Program-made: the position numbers and the translations under genes
In this document: piece by piece, positions 3,738 to 12,843 of the stretch
Position numbering within the stretch: position 1 is the stretch's first letter
Layout: the number at the start of each line of letters is the position of its first letter
From: a virus
Direction: 5' to 3' (one strand)
DNA length: 20,363 bases
IMG/VR virus record: IMGVR_UViG_3300010883_000674
Coordinates: 1-20,363 of that record
The notes under the pieces: generated by a model
What the model saw: the letters and a program-made list of their open reading frames with translations, nothing else
Database searches by the model: none
Told to the model about the DNA's origin: nothing

Positions 3738-4451
3738 ATGGAAAGTAAATTAACAACCCTATCGTTCTCCTCATTAAAGGAGTTCATCAAGTCACCTGCT
3801 CACTTCTTAGCATACAAGAAACGAGAGTTCGTGGAGTCTGCTTCAATGCGCTTAGGCACAGCCGTTCATATGGCTCTGCTTGAGCCTGAGAAGTTCGCTA
3901 AAGAATACGATGTTACATCGCTGCGCAAGAATACAAAGGCGTACAAAGAGATGGCTGAGCAGAAACCTGAGATAACCTATATGAATAACTCTGATTGGGC
4001 AGCCATACAGGGTATCAAAAGAAGGTTTGCTCAGAACCTGAGTGCTGTTGACCTATTGGCTCATTGTCCTCGTAGAGAGGAGGAGGTCAAAGGAGACATA
4101 CAGGGCTTCCCCTTCAGGGGCTTCGTAGATGCAATGAGTAGCGAGTGCATAGTTGACATCAAGACTACTCAAGACGGCAGTCCTCAGGGCTTCGGAAGGA
4201 GTGTAATCAATTATGGCTACCATTTACAAGCAGCTATCTATAGAGAGATGACAGGCGTAGATGATTACTTCATTATCGCTATTGAGAACAGCAGTCCTTA
4301 CAACGTATGTATTTACAAGCTGAGTCAGGGATACCTCGATAAAGGCTACGCTATGATGACCGATGGAATATACAAGTTCAATCATTGGGATGGAGAAGAG
4401 ACAGGGTATGAGAATAACCTGACATTGGAGTTACCTAGATGGGCGCAATAA
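3738..4451 (+). CDS. PD-(D/E)XK exonuclease, RecE/exodeoxyribonuclease VIII-like
   Basis: The 237-residue product matches the phage PD-(D/E)XK exonuclease family (RecB/RecE-like nuclease fold). Visible marks are the N-terminal SFSSLKEFIKSPAHFLAYKK, the RLGTAVHMALLEPEKF segment with the conserved His, metal ligand D131 in FRGFVDA, the signature D140-I-K142 in CIVDIKTT, and the helix with Gln and Tyr (YHLQAAIYREMTG). Such enzymes chew 5' ends of linear DNA to give 3' single strands for annealing by a RecT/ERF-type partner. No annealing protein is visible here; the weakly assigned protein at 2335 or a gene left of the window could supply that. Its stop overlaps the start of the replication gene (TAATG). 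Confidence 0.8.
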   Translation: MESKLTTLSFSSLKEFIKSPAHFLAYKKREFVESASMRLGTAVHMALLEPEKFAKEYDVTSLRKNTKAYKEMAEQKPEITYMNNSDWAAIQGIKRRFAQNLSAVDLLAHCPRREEEVKGDIQGFPFRGFVDAMSSECIVDIKTTQDGSPQGFGRSVINYGYHLQAAIYREMTGVDDYFIIAIENSSPYNVCIYKLSQGYLDKGYAMMTDGIYKFNHWDGEETGYENNLTLELPRWAQ

Positions 4452-5155: not shown

Positions 5156-5639
5156 TGACGCTTGGAATCACGGAAGTAACGTAAGGTCAGCAATGAGGTA
5201 TGAGCCGAAGATGACTCACGTTGCCCTTATGGCACTCCTGAAGGACGCGATTGATTACCTTGACTTCAATAAAACGATAACAGGTACTCAGAACTTCATA
5301 GATGCTGTAAATTATCTAATTGAGACATTCCCTGTTATGAAGATAGAGGAATGGAAGGTCATAATGACACGGCTCAAAGCAGGTAAGTACGGCAAGATGT
5401 ATGAGAGATTGAAGCTACCTGAGATAGTGGAGATATTTCAGCAGTACGAAGGCGAAAGAGCCGAGATGATGGAACGAGATTACAGGAGGGATAAAGAGAC
5501 ACCCCCTCCTCCATTGTCTGATGAGCAGAGCAGCCTAATGAAGCGATTGCTAGTTGACCTGAAGTTACCTGAGGATGACACAGATGATAAGGGAAGGTGG
5601 GAGCACATACCATATCCTAATTCCCCTGACGATAACTAA
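5073..5639 (+). CDS. Replication-region protein of unknown function, 188 aa
   Basis: This is a helical, charged protein that I recognise as resembling a DUF group common beside replication genes in Bacteroidota phages, but it has no defined activity. Its best marks are the central segments TGTQNFIDAVNYLIETFPVM, KIEEWKVIMTRLKAGKYGKM and YERLKLPEIVEIFQQYEGER; the last two form an amphipathic helical block. A short Pro-rich acidic tail (ETPPPPLSDEQ) ends it. It starts inside the previous gene; an ATG at 5106 is a possible alternative start that would shorten it by 11 residues. Position between the winged-helix replication protein and NinG suggests a helicase-loader-like or accessory role, which is inference only. 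Confidence 0.55.
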   Translation: MNEIALKTSVAMSIAIISKPSMTALTASDAWNHGSNVRSAMRYEPKMTHVALMALLKDAIDYLDFNKTITGTQNFIDAVNYLIETFPVMKIEEWKVIMTRLKAGKYGKMYERLKLPEIVEIFQQYEGERAEMMERDYRRDKETPPPPLSDEQSSLMKRLLVDLKLPEDDTDDKGRWEHIPYPNSPDDN

Positions 5640-5662
5640 AGATTATTTTGTATATTGCGAGT

Positions 5663-6070
5663 ATGGCGACCTCGAGACAGAAGCTAGTTAAGGACTTGGA
5701 CAAGGTATTCTCACGATTCATTAGAATGAGAGTATCAGATGATTCAGGGTATAGCGAATGTTTCACCTGTGGGAAGACGGCTAAATGGAAGGAGGGAGAC
5801 GCAGGTCACTTTATGGGACGTGGTGCATTCGCAACTAGATGGGATGAAAAAAATGTTCAATTTCAATGTAAGAGATGTAACATATTCCGTCACGGAGAGC
5901 AGTACCTGTTTTCCGTTAACCTAAATAGAGAATACGGGGAGGGGACATCAGATTCCCTCCTCAGATATTCCAAGCAGTCAAAGAAATACGGAGTAGTGGA
6001 GCTTACCGAGATGATAATGACGTACAAAGATAAAGTTGAAGAACTCAGAGCATCTAAAGGATTGGAATAA
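5663..6070 (+). CDS. NinG/Rap-like recombination protein with zinc-binding Cys cluster
   Basis: The ATG at 5663 is preferred to an in-frame TTG at 5648. The basic N-terminal 25 residues (ATSRQKLVKDLDKVFSRFIR) lead into a Cys-His zinc core: CFTCGKTAKWKEGDAGHFMG, then R.AFATRWDEKNVQFQCKRCN, where the two CxxC pairs and the GHF His match the phage lambda NinG (Rap) family, an HNH-like fold. Lambda Rap is a structure-specific endonuclease that helps recombination. Length (135 aa) is shorter than lambda NinG (about 200 aa), as in many phage homologues. The 3' end overlaps the sigma-like gene by 35 nt. Its place after the replication genes fits. Confidence 0.75.
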   Translation: MATSRQKLVKDLDKVFSRFIRMRVSDDSGYSECFTCGKTAKWKEGDAGHFMGRGAFATRWDEKNVQFQCKRCNIFRHGEQYLFSVNLNREYGEGTSDSLLRYSKQSKKYGVVELTEMIMTYKDKVEELRASKGLE

Positions 6071-6533
6071 GTGGGTAGAGACCAACTATTCTAAATTAGT
6101 GACTGCTGCAACGAGCATTCATAAAGAACCTCGTGACCTTGTGCATCATACTTACCTGAGAATACTCAGATTAAAGGGCGTAAAAATAGATGCGGTTATT
6201 GAGAAGCCCTTCGCATATTTCAGACGAGCAATGTATATGGAAGCGACTCGAGGAAAGTTCAAATCAGACTATTATTTAAGTTCTCTTGTCATTCAAAATC
6301 AGACAGCAGAATACGACCTGAGCCACGCATTTATGCTTGAGAATTTTCAGTTAGCAGTTGACAGATTATCGTGGTTTGATGGAATGGTTCTGACGCTTTA
6401 TTGTCAAGGTTTCAACCTAACGCAAGTCTCAAGAGAATCAGGCATAAAACCGACCATATTTCACACCTCTTTATTCAGGTCAAGGGAGAAGTTGAAGAAT
6501 TATTTTGCAGCTCTAGAGGGCTCGTCTCCATAG
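6036..6533 (+). CDS. Small RNA polymerase sigma factor-like protein (ECF type)
   Basis: TTG at 6036 is the only reasonable start, since the homologous region begins right after it. The 165 residues show a sigma region 2-like segment (about residues 18-70: LVTAATSIHKEPRDLVHHTY, LRILRL, then FAYFRRAMYMEATRG) and a region 4-like helix-turn-helix near the C-terminus (FDGMVLTLYCQGFNLTQVSR, ESGIKPTIFHTSLFRSREKL). The order and length agree with ECF-type sigma factors, although the key region 2 residues are diverged, so it could be a sigma-like regulator that does not bind polymerase in the usual way. It probably turns on later genes. It overlaps NinG by 35 nt. An 85-nt gap follows, the first since the exonuclease, where its product's target promoter might lie. 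Confidence 0.65.
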   Translation: MKNSEHLKDWNKWVETNYSKLVTAATSIHKEPRDLVHHTYLRILRLKGVKIDAVIEKPFAYFRRAMYMEATRGKFKSDYYLSSLVIQNQTAEYDLSHAFMLENFQLAVDRLSWFDGMVLTLYCQGFNLTQVSRESGIKPTIFHTSLFRSREKLKNYFAALEGSSP

Positions 6534-7360: not shown

Positions 7361-7590
7361 TGACACCGAGACGAGCAAAGAGATACATCAACACCTCGAA
7401 TGATTGGATATTATTCGCTGTTGAGGAGAAGGGAGACCAACATTCCTACAGAGTAATAATGAGCAGGGAAGAAGCGTGGGAGATTCTGCTTAACTTAGCC
7501 ATAACAGATTACCCTATCAGAGAAACATTAAGAAATATATTAAATACAGCAGATGACTACATTAAAAATCAACCTAATCCTCCCGAATGA
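7360..7590 (+). CDS. Small hypothetical protein, 76 aa
   Basis: I do not recognise it. It starts with the A shared by the upstream TAA (TAATG at 7358-7362). The product has a basic N-terminus (TPRRAKRYINTSNDW), a short beta-like stretch (ILFAVEEKGDQHSYRVIMS) and a helical second half (REEAWEILLNLAITDYPIRE) that ends in a polar tail (IKNQPNPPE). It has no metal, nucleotide or membrane motif. It may partner the DnaA-like or the ParB-like protein between which it sits; the 38-nt overlap with the ParB-like gene supports coupling. Confidence 0.5.
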   Translation: MTPRRAKRYINTSNDWILFAVEEKGDQHSYRVIMSREEAWEILLNLAITDYPIRETLRNILNTADDYIKNQPNPPE

Positions 7591-8122
7591 GGATAACCCG
7601 AGAACTATTCGTGAATCTAGTTTCAAGAAATTAGTTAAATCAATCAAGGACTTCCCTGAGATGCTTGAAGCACGACCTATTGTTATCAATCCTGATAACG
7701 TGGTGATAGGAGGCAATATGAGATTAGCTGCAGCGAAGGAAGCAGGGCTAAAAGAAGTGCCTGTACATAAGGTAACTTGGGCTAAGGCTAAAAGAGCTGA
7801 GTTTATTATTAAGGATAACGTCTCATACGGAGAGTGGGATTGGGATATGTTAGCGAACGAATGGGATAACGTCAAGATGGAAGAATGGGGGTTAGACGTT
7901 TGGACACCTGAGACAAATGTAGACTACTCAATCCTCGATGAGGAGTACGGAGCACTTGATGAGACCGTCAAGGAGATGCAAGAGGGAGTCAAGAGGGCAA
8001 TCCAAATAGAGTTTGAAGGCGATGACTACACGACAGCATTAACGTTAGCGAATGGGCTTAGAAAGGACGGAGTCTATGTCGGAGGATTACTCATTGAAGC
8101 GATGAAGAAGTGCGTTGGATAG
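7553..8122 (+). CDS. ParB/Srx-like nuclease-type domain protein
   Basis: The first 115 residues form a ParB N-terminal-like domain: LKINLILPNEDNPRTI, SSFKKLVKSIKDFPEMLEAR and, as the signature, VIGGNMRLAAAKEAG (residues 51-65, with the GGNMR loop that binds nucleotide in this fold), then VPVHKVTW and a FIIKDNVSYGEWDWDMLANEW end typical of phage ParB-like proteins near DNA-modifying enzymes. The C-terminal 60 residues (VKRAIQIEFEGDDYTTALTL, VYVGGLLIEAMKKC) form a small unrelated domain. Such proteins may bind or nick DNA, or bind CTP. This gene opens the predicted base-modification cassette and overlaps the PLP enzyme gene by 13 nt, which suggests it helps target or assist modification. Confidence 0.75.
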   Translation: MTTLKINLILPNEDNPRTIRESSFKKLVKSIKDFPEMLEARPIVINPDNVVIGGNMRLAAAKEAGLKEVPVHKVTWAKAKRAEFIIKDNVSYGEWDWDMLANEWDNVKMEEWGLDVWTPETNVDYSILDEEYGALDETVKEMQEGVKRAIQIEFEGDDYTTALTLANGLRKDGVYVGGLLIEAMKKCVG

Positions 8123-9048
8123 ACACCATACACGACCTAACTCCTGTTGAGATAGTTGATGGGATGACATTCAAGAGGGATGACAAGTTCGCTCCTCTTG
8201 GGTATGGTGATATTAATGGAGCAAAGCTGAGACAGGCAATATGGCTCGTTGATGGATGGGTTAAGCGAGGAGTTAAAGGCATCGTGAGTGGCTCGGTATC
8301 ACAGTCCCCTCAACACGCATTCATATCTGAGATTTGTAAGCACTATCGAATAGGCTGCGTGATTACTCACTCCAAGAAGAAGATAGAGGAGAAAGATTCC
8401 CCCTATTTATTCAGAGCAAAGAGGCTCGGAGCTAAGATGCTGTACTCAAAGGTGGGATACGCAAAGACATTAGGGGCATTAGCAAGGAAGACATTGAAGC
8501 TACTACCTGACCACGAGTTCCTAGAGACGAATATCACGCTTGAAGACAACGTGAATACGTGGGAAGAGATAGAAGCGTTCCATTCTGTTGGAGCAGAGCA
8601 AGTTAGGAACATACCGAGTAGCGTCAATAGGTTGGTTATTCCCTGCGGTAGCTGTAACTCATCTACATCAATCTTGTATGGGCTTCTGAAGTACCCTAAG
8701 CCTAACTTAAAAGAGATAATACTGATGGGGATAGGCAACCACGGAAGCAATAACATAGAGTACATTGAGCACAGGCTGAAGCACATATGCGCAACCAAAG
8801 GTATTGACACCGAGGGAGTGTATGATTGGAGCTTTGAGGGACTAAAGGGCTTCAGACATTCGATGCGGTATGAGAACCTGAATGGAACAGGGTATTGTCA
8901 GTATTCTGATACGTTTCACGAGAAAGCAGGTAGCATTTACTTCCACCCCCGATACGAAGGTAAGTGCATCAGGTATTTTCGTCAGAGAATGAAAGAGCAT
9001 TGGAATGAGAAGACATTATTTTGGATAGTAGGGAGCGACATAAGATGA
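8110..9048 (+). CDS. Fold-type II PLP-dependent enzyme (ACC deaminase/cysteine desulfhydrase-like)
   Basis: Start is GTG at 8110. The 312-residue product follows the layout of fold-type II PLP enzymes: TPVEIVDGMTFKRDDKFAPL at the N-terminus, the putative Schiff-base lysine K39 in DINGAKLRQA (family form GGNKxRK), the substrate loop GSVSQSPQH (residues 61-69; family form S.QSNH), and the phosphate-cup region CGSCNSST (179-186; family form GSGGT). The family carries out elimination, replacement or deamination at amino acid alpha/beta carbons. The phosphate loop with two Cys is unusual. Being between a ParB-like protein and a DNA-base kinase-type protein, it most likely processes an amino acid attached to, or used for, a modified base; this is inference. 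Its stop overlaps the next start (ATGA). Confidence 0.7.
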   Translation: MRWIDTIHDLTPVEIVDGMTFKRDDKFAPLGYGDINGAKLRQAIWLVDGWVKRGVKGIVSGSVSQSPQHAFISEICKHYRIGCVITHSKKKIEEKDSPYLFRAKRLGAKMLYSKVGYAKTLGALARKTLKLLPDHEFLETNITLEDNVNTWEEIEAFHSVGAEQVRNIPSSVNRLVIPCGSCNSSTSILYGLLKYPKPNLKEIILMGIGNHGSNNIEYIEHRLKHICATKGIDTEGVYDWSFEGLKGFRHSMRYENLNGTGYCQYSDTFHEKAGSIYFHPRYEGKCIRYFRQRMKEHWNEKTLFWIVGSDIR

Positions 9049-10550
9049 CAGATAACCGATTACCTGAGAACAGGAGGAAAGTATTCCTCGACTTCTATGA
9101 GTTCCACCTCAAATATGGGGCTCACGCAGGAGCAGTTTATTATGCCTTCCCTTACCTGTTTAAGACGCTTCAGATGACCGAAGAGCAGAAGCTATGGTTT
9201 GTATTCATTAATGGGAATACTCAGAACGTGGTAACGACATACAGAATATACTCAGCATTCCCCTCCATTGATTTAATTAGAGATTCGAGAGAGGAATTAG
9301 AGCGATGGTTCGAGACTAATTACAATAACTTGCCGTGGGATACAGACAGGAGATACACGAGGACTCGATTCATTTGGAGCGTATCGAATTACATTGAGCA
9401 ATTAGACGGAAAGACTCAGGCAGATTACTTCGCTCAGTTCACGACAGGTCAGCATAAGTATCAGAACTTCAGCCTGTTATGGGATGTCATTATTAATAAG
9501 TTCGTCTCCTTTGGGAGGCTATCAACTTTCAGCTACTTGGAATACCTGAGATTAGCAGGGATAAATGTAGACTGTGATTGGTTATTCTTTGAGGACATAA
9601 CAGGGAGCAAATCTCACAGGAATGGATTATGCAAGGTGCTAGGTCGGGATGACTTGGATTGGACTAAAGATAACACCCCAAACTACACCCCTGAGATACT
9701 TGATTGGCTGAATGACGAGGGCAACGAATTGATTAAGGAGGCTAAAGCAACGATTGACCATCCTGATGTATCATACTTCACGTTAGAAACGACATTATGC
9801 TGTTACAAGGGATGGCATCGGGTTAACAGGCGTTACCCTAATGTGTACAACGATATGTTCTATGACAGGATAAGGAAAGCAGAGGAATTATGGGGAGATA
9901 AACTAAACGTATTTTGGGACTGCCGTAAGGAACTGCTACCTAAGTCGTTAAGATTAGAAGAGAACATACTTGACAAGGGGTTAAGTAAAGAGAAACAGAA
10001 TCACTACAGATTAACAGGACAAGTAATAATGATGGAAGAGTTCGGATACAAGGCAGACAAGACGTGGCTCAGGAACTGCATACTCATCGTGGGTAAATGC
10101 GGAGTAGGCAAAACGTGGGTAATGTCTCAGCTCCTAAAAGGGCAGGAGGTACAAACGCAGAAGCTAGGCAAGTTCCTCTTCCACGAGACACCTGATTACA
10201 TCGTGGTAGGCAAGTACGATGGGAGTGTATTTCAGGGGAGCGACAGACTCTCGATGAGCGTAATGACAGACTTGGACAGGATGCTCAGATACGTCCATTC
10301 GGTGGACAAGGTAGCAGTCTTTGAAGGAGACCGATTCACTAACTCCAATTTCATAGCTAAGGCGAACCCTGCAATAGTCAAGGTTCTCGGTGATGGGAGG
10401 AACGGCAGATTGAAGCGAGGCTCAAATCAGACTGAGCGTCATTTAAAGAGCATTTCAACTAGGGTTGACAACATCGTTAGCCATTGTGATACAAAAGATT
10501 CAGAACATTGCTTAGAATACCTTAAAACACTTCTCAATGAAAACGATTAA
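9045..10550 (+). CDS. Helical domain + P-loop kinase: 5-hydroxymethyl-dU DNA kinase-like / aGPT-pyrophosphorylase-like
   Basis: ATG at 9045 overlaps the previous TGA (ATGA) and is preferred to TTG at 9021, giving 501 aa. The first ~310 residues are helical with aromatic/Arg-rich marks (FYEFHLKYGAHAGAVYYAFP, FINGNTQNVVTTYRIYSAFP, NNLPWDTDRRYTRTRF, GSKSHRNGLCKVLG) like the alpha-glutamyl/putrescinyl-thymine pyrophosphorylase clan, which includes the helical domain of 5-hmdU DNA kinase and the amino acid:DNA transferase. The C-terminal part is a P-loop kinase: Walker A GKCGVGKT (350-357) and an EGDR motif (427-430) in place of the catalytic Asp region. In thymidine hypermodification pathways this fusion phosphorylates hmdU in DNA for later replacement. 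No separate transferase is seen, so this protein might also do the transfer. Confidence 0.65.
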   Translation: MTDNRLPENRRKVFLDFYEFHLKYGAHAGAVYYAFPYLFKTLQMTEEQKLWFVFINGNTQNVVTTYRIYSAFPSIDLIRDSREELERWFETNYNNLPWDTDRRYTRTRFIWSVSNYIEQLDGKTQADYFAQFTTGQHKYQNFSLLWDVIINKFVSFGRLSTFSYLEYLRLAGINVDCDWLFFEDITGSKSHRNGLCKVLGRDDLDWTKDNTPNYTPEILDWLNDEGNELIKEAKATIDHPDVSYFTLETTLCCYKGWHRVNRRYPNVYNDMFYDRIRKAEELWGDKLNVFWDCRKELLPKSLRLEENILDKGLSKEKQNHYRLTGQVIMMEEFGYKADKTWLRNCILIVGKCGVGKTWVMSQLLKGQEVQTQKLGKFLFHETPDYIVVGKYDGSVFQGSDRLSMSVMTDLDRMLRYVHSVDKVAVFEGDRFTNSNFIAKANPAIVKVLGDGRNGRLKRGSNQTERHLKSISTRVDNIVSHCDTKDSEHCLEYLKTLLNEND

Positions 10551-11334
10551 ATTAGACCTCGTAAAGCACGATAGGAAGTCCTCTCAAGATTGTGAGTACA
10601 TAGAGCCAAACATAACAGAAGATTGTCTCCTAGAATCAGAAGGAGAGATTGTAGGCTTCTACATCAGGGACATAGATGATTATTCCCCCCGACTGAGTCA
10701 ACTGCTCTCAATAGCTAACGCTGAGTTCAGGTCAGATAACGTCCCTAAGCAATTCCTAGATAGGGCAGACGTGATTAAGCTCGGAGGTAACAGGACAGAG
10801 GCGAGGAAGAAAGGCACAGCACAATGGAGCACGATACTCGGCTCAGTTCCACCTAATGCAATGACAAGGAGACATTACAGGAACAGGGCAGCCGTGCATA
10901 ATCATACTCCTGCTCAGGTCTTCATCAAAGCGATGACAGCAGCAGCGATTGAATCAGGTAAGATAATCAAGGAGATTGCCCCCCAAATTTATCACAATCA
11001 ATTAAAGGTAATGGAGAGCATCTCAAAGGAGTGGAGATTCGGTGACCTGTTCACGAGCAGCATCTCAAACTTTAACATAGCAGCATCCTTCCATACCGAT
11101 GTCAGGAATGTAAAGGGAGCAGTAAACGTCATAATGACCAAGAGGAATAACAGCAAAGGAGGTTGCCTTCACGTACCTGATTACAATGCTACATTTGAAC
11201 AGGCAGATAACTCACTATTAGTTTATCCTGCGTGGAGGAATATGCACGGAGTAACACCAATAGTTCCAACGCATACAGATGGCTACCGCAATTCACTTAT
11301 ATTTTATTCATTAAAAGCATTCAAAGATGACTGA
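10537..11334 (+). CDS. TET/JBP-like Fe(II)/2-oxoglutarate dioxygenase (DNA thymine or methylcytosine hydroxylase)
   Basis: The 265-residue product carries the double-stranded beta-helix motif set of 2-oxoglutarate dioxygenases: H186-x-D188 in FHTDVRNV, distal H237 in WRNMHGVTP and R251 in YRNSLIF for 2-oxoglutarate. The sequence between (GGCLHVPDYNATFEQADNSL) has the GG.L..P.Y.....Q.. pattern typical of phage TET/JBP relatives, as does F(T)SSISNFN before the HxD. Known enzymes oxidise thymine to 5-hydroxymethyluracil or 5-methylcytosine to 5-hydroxymethylcytosine. As no DNA cytosine methyltransferase is seen here and the neighbour resembles a 5-hmdU kinase, thymine is the likelier substrate. 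It overlaps the kinase by 14 nt and the terminase small subunit by 8 nt. The ~150-residue N-terminal region is not a domain I recognise. Confidence 0.7.
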   Translation: MKTIKLDLVKHDRKSSQDCEYIEPNITEDCLLESEGEIVGFYIRDIDDYSPRLSQLLSIANAEFRSDNVPKQFLDRADVIKLGGNRTEARKKGTAQWSTILGSVPPNAMTRRHYRNRAAVHNHTPAQVFIKAMTAAAIESGKIIKEIAPQIYHNQLKVMESISKEWRFGDLFTSSISNFNIAASFHTDVRNVKGAVNVIMTKRNNSKGGCLHVPDYNATFEQADNSLLVYPAWRNMHGVTPIVPTHTDGYRNSLIFYSLKAFKDD

Positions 11335-11689
11335 CAAATCTGACACTAAAAAAGGAACACTCATTGAGGCATTAGGCAAATCATTGGGAGTAGTTTCAAC
11401 AGCCTGTAAATCAGTTAACATCTCAAGGGACACACACTACCGATGGATGAAGGAAGACTCAGACTACAAGGGCAAGGTAAGGGAGTTAGAGAACATTGCT
11501 CTAGACTTTGCTGAGAGCCACCTCCATCAGCTAATTAAAGACGGCATCCCTTCAGCTACGATATTCTTTCTCAAGACCAAAGGGAAGAGGAGAGGATACA
11601 TTGAGACGACTGACCTGCAGATAACAGAGAAGAAGCCCCTGACGTGGATGGATGAGGTATCAAGGAAAAAGAAGAGAGAGCAGAAGTGA
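11327..11689 (+). CDS. terS: Terminase small subunit-like HTH protein
   Basis: A helix-turn-helix lies in the first half (IEALGKSLGVVSTACKSVNI, then SRDTHYRWMKEDSDYKGKV), followed by ENIALDFAESHLHQLIKDGI and PSATIFFLKTKGKRRGY, the arrangement seen in phBC6A51-type phage terminase small subunits. The tail is basic and Lys-rich (VSRKKKREQK). It should recognise the packaging site and hand DNA to the large subunit. Its stop overlaps the large subunit's GTG (GTGA at 11686-11689), and its ATG overlaps the dioxygenase by 8 nt, so the modification cassette and packaging genes are co-translated. A regulator with an HTH is the alternative, but context favours the terminase. Confidence 0.75.
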   Translation: MTDKSDTKKGTLIEALGKSLGVVSTACKSVNISRDTHYRWMKEDSDYKGKVRELENIALDFAESHLHQLIKDGIPSATIFFLKTKGKRRGYIETTDLQITEKKPLTWMDEVSRKKKREQK

Positions 11690-12843
11690 CTCTCCCAACG
11701 ACATATTACCACGCTACTGAATCAGACGCAAAGATACAAGTCCATCAGGGAGGCACGAGGAGTGGAAAGACATACTCACTACTCACCTTCATAATAGAGT
11801 TCTGTTATCACAATGAAGGCGCAGGAGCAGTAGTCACAATATGCCGTAAGACATTCCCTGCTCTCAGGGCATCAGTAATGAGAGACTTCTTTGAGATACT
11901 TGAGAAGGAGGGTATGTACAGCCCCTCAGGTCATAACAAATCTGACAGCACTTATCAGCTGTATGGCAACCTAGTTGAGTTCATTTCAGTAGACCAACCT
12001 CAGAAGGTCAGAGGGAGGAAGAGAGACCTCCTGTTTATCAATGAGGCAAATGAGCTGAGCCTTGAAGAGTGGAGGCAATTAATCCTGAGAACCACAGGGC
12101 GTATCGTGATTGACTACAACCCCTCAGATGAGTTCCATTGGATTTACGACAATGTGATTGACAGGGATGATGCTCAGTTCTTTCAGACCACGTACAAGGA
12201 TAACCCCTTCCTAAACGAATCAGTCATTCAAGAGATTGAGCGATTCCAAGAGGTAGATGAGGACTTTTGGAAGGTGTATGGATTGGGTGAGAGGGGTGTG
12301 AACAGGAGCGCAGTACTCACGCATTGGAAGCAGGTCAAGACCATACCCCCCGAATACAAGCTAATGAATGTGGGGCTCGACTTCGGTTACACTAATGACG
12401 CAACAGCCATAGTTAAAGTGTACACAGACGGACACGGCTTCCTGTTAGATGAAGTATGTTACGCAACAGGCTTGACTAACGCAGCCATCGCTCAGGTAAT
12501 GAGGGACGCAGGGATTAAGCGAGAGGACTCTGTAATTGCCGATTGTGCTGAGCCAAAGAGCATAGATGATTTGCACGGACACGGCTTTAACATACACCCT
12601 TGCAGGAAGGGAGCAGACAGCATCAGGGCAGGGATAGACTTCCTCAGGTCAAGACCGCTATTCATCACCGAGAGGAGTGTGAACGGCATCAAAGAATTAA
12701 GGAACTACAAGTACAAGGAGGATAAGAACGGACGTATATTGAACGCACCTGTCGACCTGTTCAATCACTTTATCGATGCGTCACGTTACGCTATTACATT
12801 CAATCAGACTAACCCTAATTATGGGAGCTATGCTCTTGGGTAA
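11686..12843 (+). CDS. terL: Terminase large subunit (packaging ATPase and nuclease)
   Basis: GTG at 11686 fits the spacing (GTGA overlap). The 385-residue protein shows the two expected domains. ATPase: Walker A GGTRSGKT (residues 22-29), Arg-rich CRKTFPALRAS, Walker B LLFINE with catalytic E120, and a motif near RTTGRIVIDYNPSD. Nuclease: acidic residues D232 (GLDFGYTNDATA), D286 (VIADCAEP) and D364 (FNHFIDA), placed as in RNase H-like terminase nucleases. It packages DNA into the prohead and cuts at the end of a headful or at cos. It is shorter than many large terminases (about 420-500 aa) but complete. No portal gene follows, which is unusual. Confidence 0.9.
   Translation: MTLPTTYYHATESDAKIQVHQGGTRSGKTYSLLTFIIEFCYHNEGAGAVVTICRKTFPALRASVMRDFFEILEKEGMYSPSGHNKSDSTYQLYGNLVEFISVDQPQKVRGRKRDLLFINEANELSLEEWRQLILRTTGRIVIDYNPSDEFHWIYDNVIDRDDAQFFQTTYKDNPFLNESVIQEIERFQEVDEDFWKVYGLGERGVNRSAVLTHWKQVKTIPPEYKLMNVGLDFGYTNDATAIVKVYTDGHGFLLDEVCYATGLTNAAIAQVMRDAGIKREDSVIADCAEPKSIDDLHGHGFNIHPCRKGADSIRAGIDFLRSRPLFITERSVNGIKELRNYKYKEDKNGRILNAPVDLFNHFIDASRYAITFNQTNPNYGSYALG

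Follow-up and report, generated by a model that had tools for sequence, protein, structure and literature searches.

The window analyzed here is an entire virus record of 20,363 bp (IMG/VR IMGVR_UViG_3300010883_000674), in which all annotatable genes lie on the plus strand. At positions 7553-11334 it carries four overlapping genes that encode a ParB-like protein, a fold-type II pyridoxal phosphate (PLP) enzyme, an amino acid:DNA transferase domain (ADDT) fused to a P-loop kinase, and a TET/JBP dioxygenase. These genes probably constitute a cassette for the post-replicative hypermodification of thymine. A prior sequence-only reading had proposed hydroxylation, phosphorylation, amino acid attachment and trimming at this locus, and this proposal is supported by the predicted folds, the active-site residues and homologies to enzymes of Salmonella phage ViI.

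Gene content and predicted folds of the cassette

The four-gene coupled arrangement described by the sequence-only reading was confirmed in full, with all ORFs in place on the plus strand at the positions it had assigned and overlaps of 13 nt (ParB/PLP), 4 nt (PLP/fusion) and 14 nt (fusion/TET). Further overlaps of 8 nt between TET and a helix-turn-helix (HTH) gene, and of 4 nt between the HTH gene and the terminase large subunit gene (TerL), lead the cassette directly into the terminase genes. The start of the fusion gene was taken as the ATG at 9045; the mechanically assigned start is a TTG upstream at 9021. The order ParB-PLP-ADDT/kinase-TET with a fused protein was found in 9 distinct contigs including the window, some of which are near-copies of one another, and because of this recurrence the order is not attributable to chance. 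Comparison of the four genes with five relatives revealed synonymous divergence (pS) of 0.74-1.0, at or near saturation, and nonsynonymous divergence (pN) of 0.19-0.38, indicating strong purifying selection on all four. The genes are thus real and maintained in relatives. Decay or inactivity of the cassette is extremely improbable given this selection and the retention of every active-site residue, and nothing was found in its favour.

Analysis of the dioxygenase revealed a Tet_JBP domain (PF12851; 5.2e-12, 45.7 bits against a Pfam cut-off of 34.9), and residues H186, D188, H237 and R251 were invariant in 17 TET sequences. The best structure matches of its predicted model (pLDDT 89.8) were TET2 (Z 19.1 over 244 residues, rmsd 3.5; Foldseek 1.7e-12) and Naegleria TET. 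As modeled, the dioxygenase adopts the fold of TET2 and retains an intact active site, and Pfam, metal ligands and fold all agree with its earlier assignment as TET/JBP-like. A structural test set beforehand for the products of the genes at 9045 and 10537 gave the same outcome, with both predicted models in the expected folds (kinase and TET/JBP, respectively). Several relatives are labelled queuine tRNA-ribosyltransferase or DpdA-like transglycosylase (NC_020847, NC_020857, NC_051587, PP035218 and phrog_6059), an apparent misannotation; for phrog_6059 and several RefSeq records, fold and active site led us to reject the queuine tRNA-ribosyltransferase assignment.

The gene at 9045 had been read as an unnamed helical domain fused to a P-loop kinase. 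The kinase half of this description held (Z 9.8, Walker A motif), and the helical domain turned out to be an ADDT transferase (PF18724; 3.6e-18, 66.6 bits against a gathering score of 26.2). The amino acid:DNA transferase that was to be sought elsewhere in the genome was therefore found within the cassette itself. In the AlphaFold model of the fusion protein (pLDDT 81.8), residues 12-303 best matched the 5-phosphomethyl-deoxyuridine (5-PmdU) glycinyltransferase gp46/PUGT (8z2m; Z 15.7 over 251 residues), followed by 8-oxoguanine DNA glycosylases at Z ~8. PDB sequence searches with ADDT profiles gave no match, and the glycinyltransferase was found by fold comparison alone. This enzyme, from Pseudomonas phage PaMx11 (8z2m, 8z2n), shares the ADDT domain fold but is only ~16% identical in sequence, stands alone and uses glycine as donor. 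The ADDT domain is also 28% identical to ViI Vi01_199 (orf00247), and the model suggests an amino acid:DNA transferase whose probable substrate is a 5-phosphomethyl-pyrimidine. The kinase domain model matched nucleotide kinases at Z 8-9.8, with guanylate kinase highest. Its sequence is homologous to kinases that are encoded separately in cassettes of actinophages and elsewhere (30% identity to one actinophage cassette kinase), and the ViI kinase Vi01_061c (orf00067) gave a weak match (E 6.6e-5) to a profile of cassette kinases. On the strength of the modeled fold, a hydroxymethyl-base DNA kinase is the probable function.

The PLP enzyme matched Pfam weakly as a single sequence (PALP, 0.03, below the cut-off) and phrog_3650 strongly (2.7e-66). 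Its family profile found ACC deaminase (3.9e-8) and also D-cysteine desulfhydrase, and K39, G180, S181 and N183 were invariant across the family, down to the relatives in ViI and Glutamicibacter phage Montesquieu. The fold-type II assignment of the sequence-only reading is upheld by the PHROG match, the ACC deaminase match and the invariant lysine and phosphate loop. As a single-sequence query the protein found nothing in viral contigs, whereas an alignment query did find relatives. The enzyme is 33% identical to ViI Vi01_182 (orf00226), and PLP and ADDT co-occur in 69 contigs. On this analysis it is the likely finishing enzyme, and the analogy with ViI suggests a decarboxylase.

The first gene encodes a ParB-like protein, as had been suggested. 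A ParB_N match (PF02195; 1.6e-5, 25.3 bits) lay 1 bit below the Pfam cut-off for the single sequence, comparison with PHROG ParB families gave E-values down to 1e-21, and a profile of 17 relatives matched ParB and Noc structures (2e-9 to 4e-6). The NPR and GGNMR motifs of the ParB nucleotide-binding region were conserved. The matches covered the N-terminal region only, and no match to an HTH (parS-binding) domain was found in the 189 aa protein.

Predicted route from thymine to an amine-bearing base

From these assignments we infer a four-step route. The TET/JBP enzyme would hydroxylate the thymine methyl group in phage DNA to give 5-hydroxymethyl-dU (5hmdU), and the kinase domain would phosphorylate its hydroxyl to give 5-PmdU. 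The ADDT domain of the same polypeptide would then swap the phosphate for a free amino acid, which by analogy with ViI is probably serine. Trimming of the attached amino acid by the PLP enzyme, with decarboxylation as the probable reaction, would leave a 5-(2-aminoethoxy)methyl-dU-like base. Kinase and transferase on one chain would channel the phosphomethyl intermediate. The position of the cassette beside the terminase genes fits modification before packaging, and DNA modified in this way would block host restriction enzymes. If this is correct, the four genes would suffice by themselves to turn ordinary thymine in DNA into an amine-bearing base, leaving the nucleotide pool unchanged.

The route was compared with that of ViI (Ackermannviridae), whose DNA contains 5-(2-aminoethoxy)methyl-dU (5-NeOmdU) at ~43% of thymines, made via 5hmdU and a 5hmdU DNA kinase (PMC6449724); 5hmdU DNA kinase activity has also been described on SP8 DNA (PMC7653180). 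The window shares homologues of the ViI PLP enzyme (Vi01_182), transferase (Vi01_199) and, weakly, P-loop kinase (Vi01_061c). According to Lee et al., ViI reportedly attaches serine, which a PLP-dependent enzyme decarboxylates. In ViI, 5hmdU is supplied by the thymidylate-synthase-like Vi01_060c, which adjoins Vi01_061c, and TET takes that place in the window. The ViI genes are moreover scattered over 157 kb, in contrast to the single four-gene unit seen here, in which transferase and kinase form one protein. By sequence the window system would work like the ViI type, but it was not classed with it, as no thymidylate-synthase-like hydroxymethylase (PF00303) was seen in the 20 kb fragment that the window represents. 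Montesquieu likewise has neighbouring ADDT, PLP and kinase genes, but it carries a thymidylate-synthase-like hydroxymethylase instead of TET, and two kinases.

The choice between thymine and 5-methylcytosine (5mC) as substrate rests on comparative evidence, which favours thymine. The thymidylate-synthase family (PF00303) was detected in 0 of 83 TET records compared with 6 of 14 TET-free ADDT/PLP records (Fisher P = 3e-6, a value that overstates independence because the records are phylogenetically related). In ADDT/PLP phages, TET and the pre-replicative thymidylate-synthase-like hydroxymethylase are thus mutually exclusive and appear to substitute for one another, as would be expected if each delivers 5hmdU. 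A cytosine C5-methylase was found in 1 of 89 TET records, many of which are fragments; the 88 records lacking one include the complete phages Hangman, Tonitrus, MED4-184 and Margaery, and this near-absence again points to thymine.

The same enzymology could instead operate on cytosine, with TET oxidizing 5mC, which a methylase of the host or an unseen one of the phage would provide, to 5-hydroxymethylcytosine and the kinase, ADDT domain and PLP enzyme building an aminoacyl-type cytosine. We consider this improbable, given the scarcity of C5-methylases, the pairing of ADDT/PLP modules with a thymidylate-synthase-like hydroxymethylase where TET is missing, and the action of the solved transferase homologue on 5-phosphomethyl-deoxyuridine. 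It was retained because of the fragmentary state of many records and the possible supply of 5mC by a host methylase. Phage TETs of demonstrated activity in Burke et al. 2021, as cited in PMC12730594, act on 5mC. Several further observations weigh against the thymine route as drawn above. As a 20 kb fragment, the record leaves room for a hydroxymethylase or cytosine methylase elsewhere in the phage. One relative, L095, has a 213-aa C5-cytosine-methylase-like gene (5573-6214) beside the PLP gene of a TET/ADDT cassette, although this gene is absent from its sister L096. The TET enzymes with solved structures among the matches are described as acting on 5mC or 6-methyladenine rather than thymine, and the PDB entries of fold type II to which the PLP enzyme is related catalyse deamination or desulfhydration rather than decarboxylation.

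The sequence-only reading had also raised the possibility of a new modified base. The present data do not establish one, since in the closest characterized system, that of ViI, the same families of transferase, kinase and PLP enzyme yield an already known base, and the final product may be that ViI base. Within the thymine route, a finished base that differs from that of ViI is a tentative prospect that we rate as somewhat the less probable outcome; it would arise from a different amino acid, or from elimination, deamination or substitution by the PLP enzyme instead of decarboxylation. The low identity to the ViI enzymes, the ACC deaminase and D-cysteine desulfhydrase folds nearest to the PLP enzyme and the use of glycine by the nearest solved transferase are consistent with such a difference, while the joint occurrence of PLP and ADDT in 69 contigs, both with ViI homologues, and the fact that the ViI enzyme shares the residues invariant in the PLP family argue for the known product.

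The distribution of these genes among relatives forms nested subsets, from TET without a slot gene (L068-L070), through TET with kinase (Microbacterium phage Margaery) and the addition of ADDT (Hangman, MossRose, L022/L023), to the addition of PLP (the window and others). Comparison of L022 with L029 revealed a clean deletion of the PLP gene, with approximately its first 15 codons left before the transferase (L022 922-1049) and kinase, ADDT and TET kept, which is consistent with the PLP enzyme acting last. The Margaery locus (L241 642-2161) is a minimal ParB-TET-P-loop kinase-terminase set, and its predicted end product is phosphorylated hydroxymethyl-dU.

The exchangeable slot between ParB and TET

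A scan with the TET of the window identified at least 146 viral contigs with TET relatives, and the typical gene order was ParB-[slot]-TET-HTH-TerL. The slot was empty in some loci and otherwise held a TAGT glycosyltransferase (PF20691), a methyltransferase of the FkbM family (PF05050) or an ADDT/kinase module, the last either by itself or together with PLP or a glutamine amidotransferase domain; a further slot family is glycosyltransferase-like by eye only, with no Pfam match. On a quick tree of 109 TETs the slot filling changed at least 23 times. Contigs L047 and L048 aligned at ~95% over most of ~20 kb, and the alignment ended exactly at the end of ParB and resumed at the start of TET; one carries TAGT in the slot and the other an unrelated enzyme that looks glycosyltransferase-like by eye and has no Pfam match. 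The same slot-confined exchange, TAGT versus FkbM, was observed among L041, L043 and L054/L055, and in L094 a PLP-ADDT/kinase pair of the window type accompanies a TET that groups with the FkbM/TAGT types. Taken together, these patterns provide direct evidence for an exchange of decorating modules around a hydroxylase that is retained.

We see an even prospect that many uncultured phages share a fixed chassis of ParB and a thymine-hydroxylating TET beside the terminase, onto which decorating enzymes are recombined as a unit, with the window representing a complete one-operon pathway to a base that is possibly undescribed. Near-identical phages would in that case wear chemically different DNA, with glycosylated, methylated or amino-acid-derived thymines, and the swappable slot would amount to a naturally occurring set of DNA decorations that all build on one hydroxymethyl handle. 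Slot exchange also suggests how phages could quickly change their DNA armour against restriction. TET-initiated phage hypermodification and ADDT/kinase cassettes beside the terminase were reportedly already proposed by Iyer et al. in 2013. As far as the literature covered here shows, three features appear to be new: the complete one-operon TET-kinase-transferase-PLP set, the transferase-kinase fusion that recurs within that gene order across nine contigs, and module exchange at the slot. The compact operon and its cultured relatives open a direct experimental test of a point still unsettled, namely whether thymine is a substrate of phage TETs.

Cultured relatives include the ParB-TET-aGPT-Pplase2/ADDT-kinase cassettes of the actinophages Hangman (Mycobacterium), Tonitrus (Rhodococcus) and MossRose (Gordonia), of which the Tonitrus cassette has been described as a putative thymidine hypermodification system (PMC11955845). 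As in the window, ParB, TET, ADDT and kinase are packed just upstream of the terminase; unlike the window, no PLP enzyme was found adjacent, transferase and kinase are separate, and the TET is only 21-26% identical. The closest named TET (50% identity) is that of Prochlorococcus phage MED4-184, which shares the ParB-slot-TET-terminase order but has an FkbM-type methyltransferase in place of PLP and ADDT-kinase.

ParB preceded the slot and TET in 71 of the 81 TET loci with a readable neighbourhood, and PF02195 matches were confined to TET records (0 of 14 TET-free ADDT/PLP records in a scan of low sensitivity). By sequence, ParB is more likely associated with TET than with ADDT/PLP, and it more likely serves post-replicative hydroxylation, or the coupling of this step to DNA, than the amino acid chemistry; it would probably aid the loading or spreading of the modification machinery on DNA. 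A ParB-like protein outside the modification machinery, with an ordinary role in partition, packaging or regulation and a coincidental upstream position, is rather doubtful. Phages commonly carry ParB homologues, and ViI and Montesquieu have transferase and PLP enzyme with no ParB found by PF02195; against this stand the position of ParB in the TET loci, its confinement to TET records in that scan and its occurrence in the actinophage cassettes. The idea that ParB is a free serine kinase of the ParB/Srx fold that feeds the PLP enzyme was dropped as unsupported; the profile best fits ParB/Noc, and the presence of ParB in cassettes without PLP weakens the idea further. Three tandem ParB-like genes precede TET and a fused ADDT-kinase in L168 and L191, and many other cassettes have two ParB genes.

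Other slot fillings point to further chemistries. TAGT loci (L011, L012, L026, L042, L059 and others) are ParB-TAGT-TET small phages in which no C5-cytosine methylase was detected in the scanned records; the predicted product by sequence is glycosylated hydroxymethyluracil, a base J-like phage DNA. The FkbM methyltransferase occupies the slot in MED4-184 (L005 8234-8935) and 23 other loci, for which 5-methoxymethyl-dU is predicted from the gene content. The MED4-184 ParB gene is annotated 'DNA methylase'; this gene, CPAG_00033, was considered as a cytosine methylase pointing to 5mC and rejected, as it aligns with the ParB gene. In L031, L051, L052 and L065 a gene with a GATase_6-type amidotransferase domain adjoins ADDT, kinase and TET, perhaps another amino acid variant that uses glutamine. 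L141 and L142 (8982-10843) carry ParB-(ParB-)radical SAM-PLP (a distant homologue) with no TET, and their downstream genes resemble those of the small and large terminase subunits in position and size; a radical-SAM-initiated version of the cassette is possible.

Feature coordinates and neighbouring genes

Table 1. Features of the cassette and adjoining genes. Positions refer to the window unless a contig is named.
Feature	Position	Strand	Remarks
ParB-like protein, N-terminal domain, 189 aa	7553..8122	+	First cassette gene; PF02195 and PHROG ParB families
Fold-type II PLP enzyme, 312 aa	8110..9048	+	phrog_3650; homologue of ViI Vi01_182 (orf00226)
PLP enzyme Schiff-base Lys39	8224-8226	+	
PLP enzyme phosphate-binding loop, residues 180-183	8647-8658	+	
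Fused transferase/kinase gene, whole	9045-10550	+	Two domains
ADDT domain, fusion residues 1-335	9045..10049	+	PF18724
P-loop kinase domain, fusion residues 342-501	10068..10550	+	Structure match to nucleotide kinases
Walker A GKCGVGKT of kinase domain	10092-10115	+	
TET/JBP 2-oxoglutarate (2OG)/Fe(II) dioxygenase, 265 aa	10537..11334	+	PF12851
TET metal ligands H186, D188, H237	11092-11094, 11098-11100, 11245-11247	+	
TET 2OG-binding R251	11287-11289	+	
HTH protein, probable terminase small subunit	11327..11689	+	PHROG terminase small subunit 7e-5
Terminase large subunit	11686..12843	+	Terminase_3 2e-21; Bacteroides phage TerL ~40%
Differing slot region of L047 and L048	L047 9278-10000; L048 9104-10000		

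The best matches of TerL were mostly Bacteroides phages at ~40%, which lends slight support to the suggestion that the record derives from a Bacteroidota phage. A TET profile scan of genome contigs found no relative, so no prophage host is named. Elsewhere in the window, an Exonuclease VIII-like nuclease (DUF3799; 3738-4451) and a NinG-like endonuclease (5648-6070) make up a set of phage recombination genes, which could promote the exchange of modules. At the edge of the record (4-876) lies a gene for an ArdC-like anti-restriction protein, with an N-terminal domain and a zincin peptidase, which represents a second anti-restriction function.

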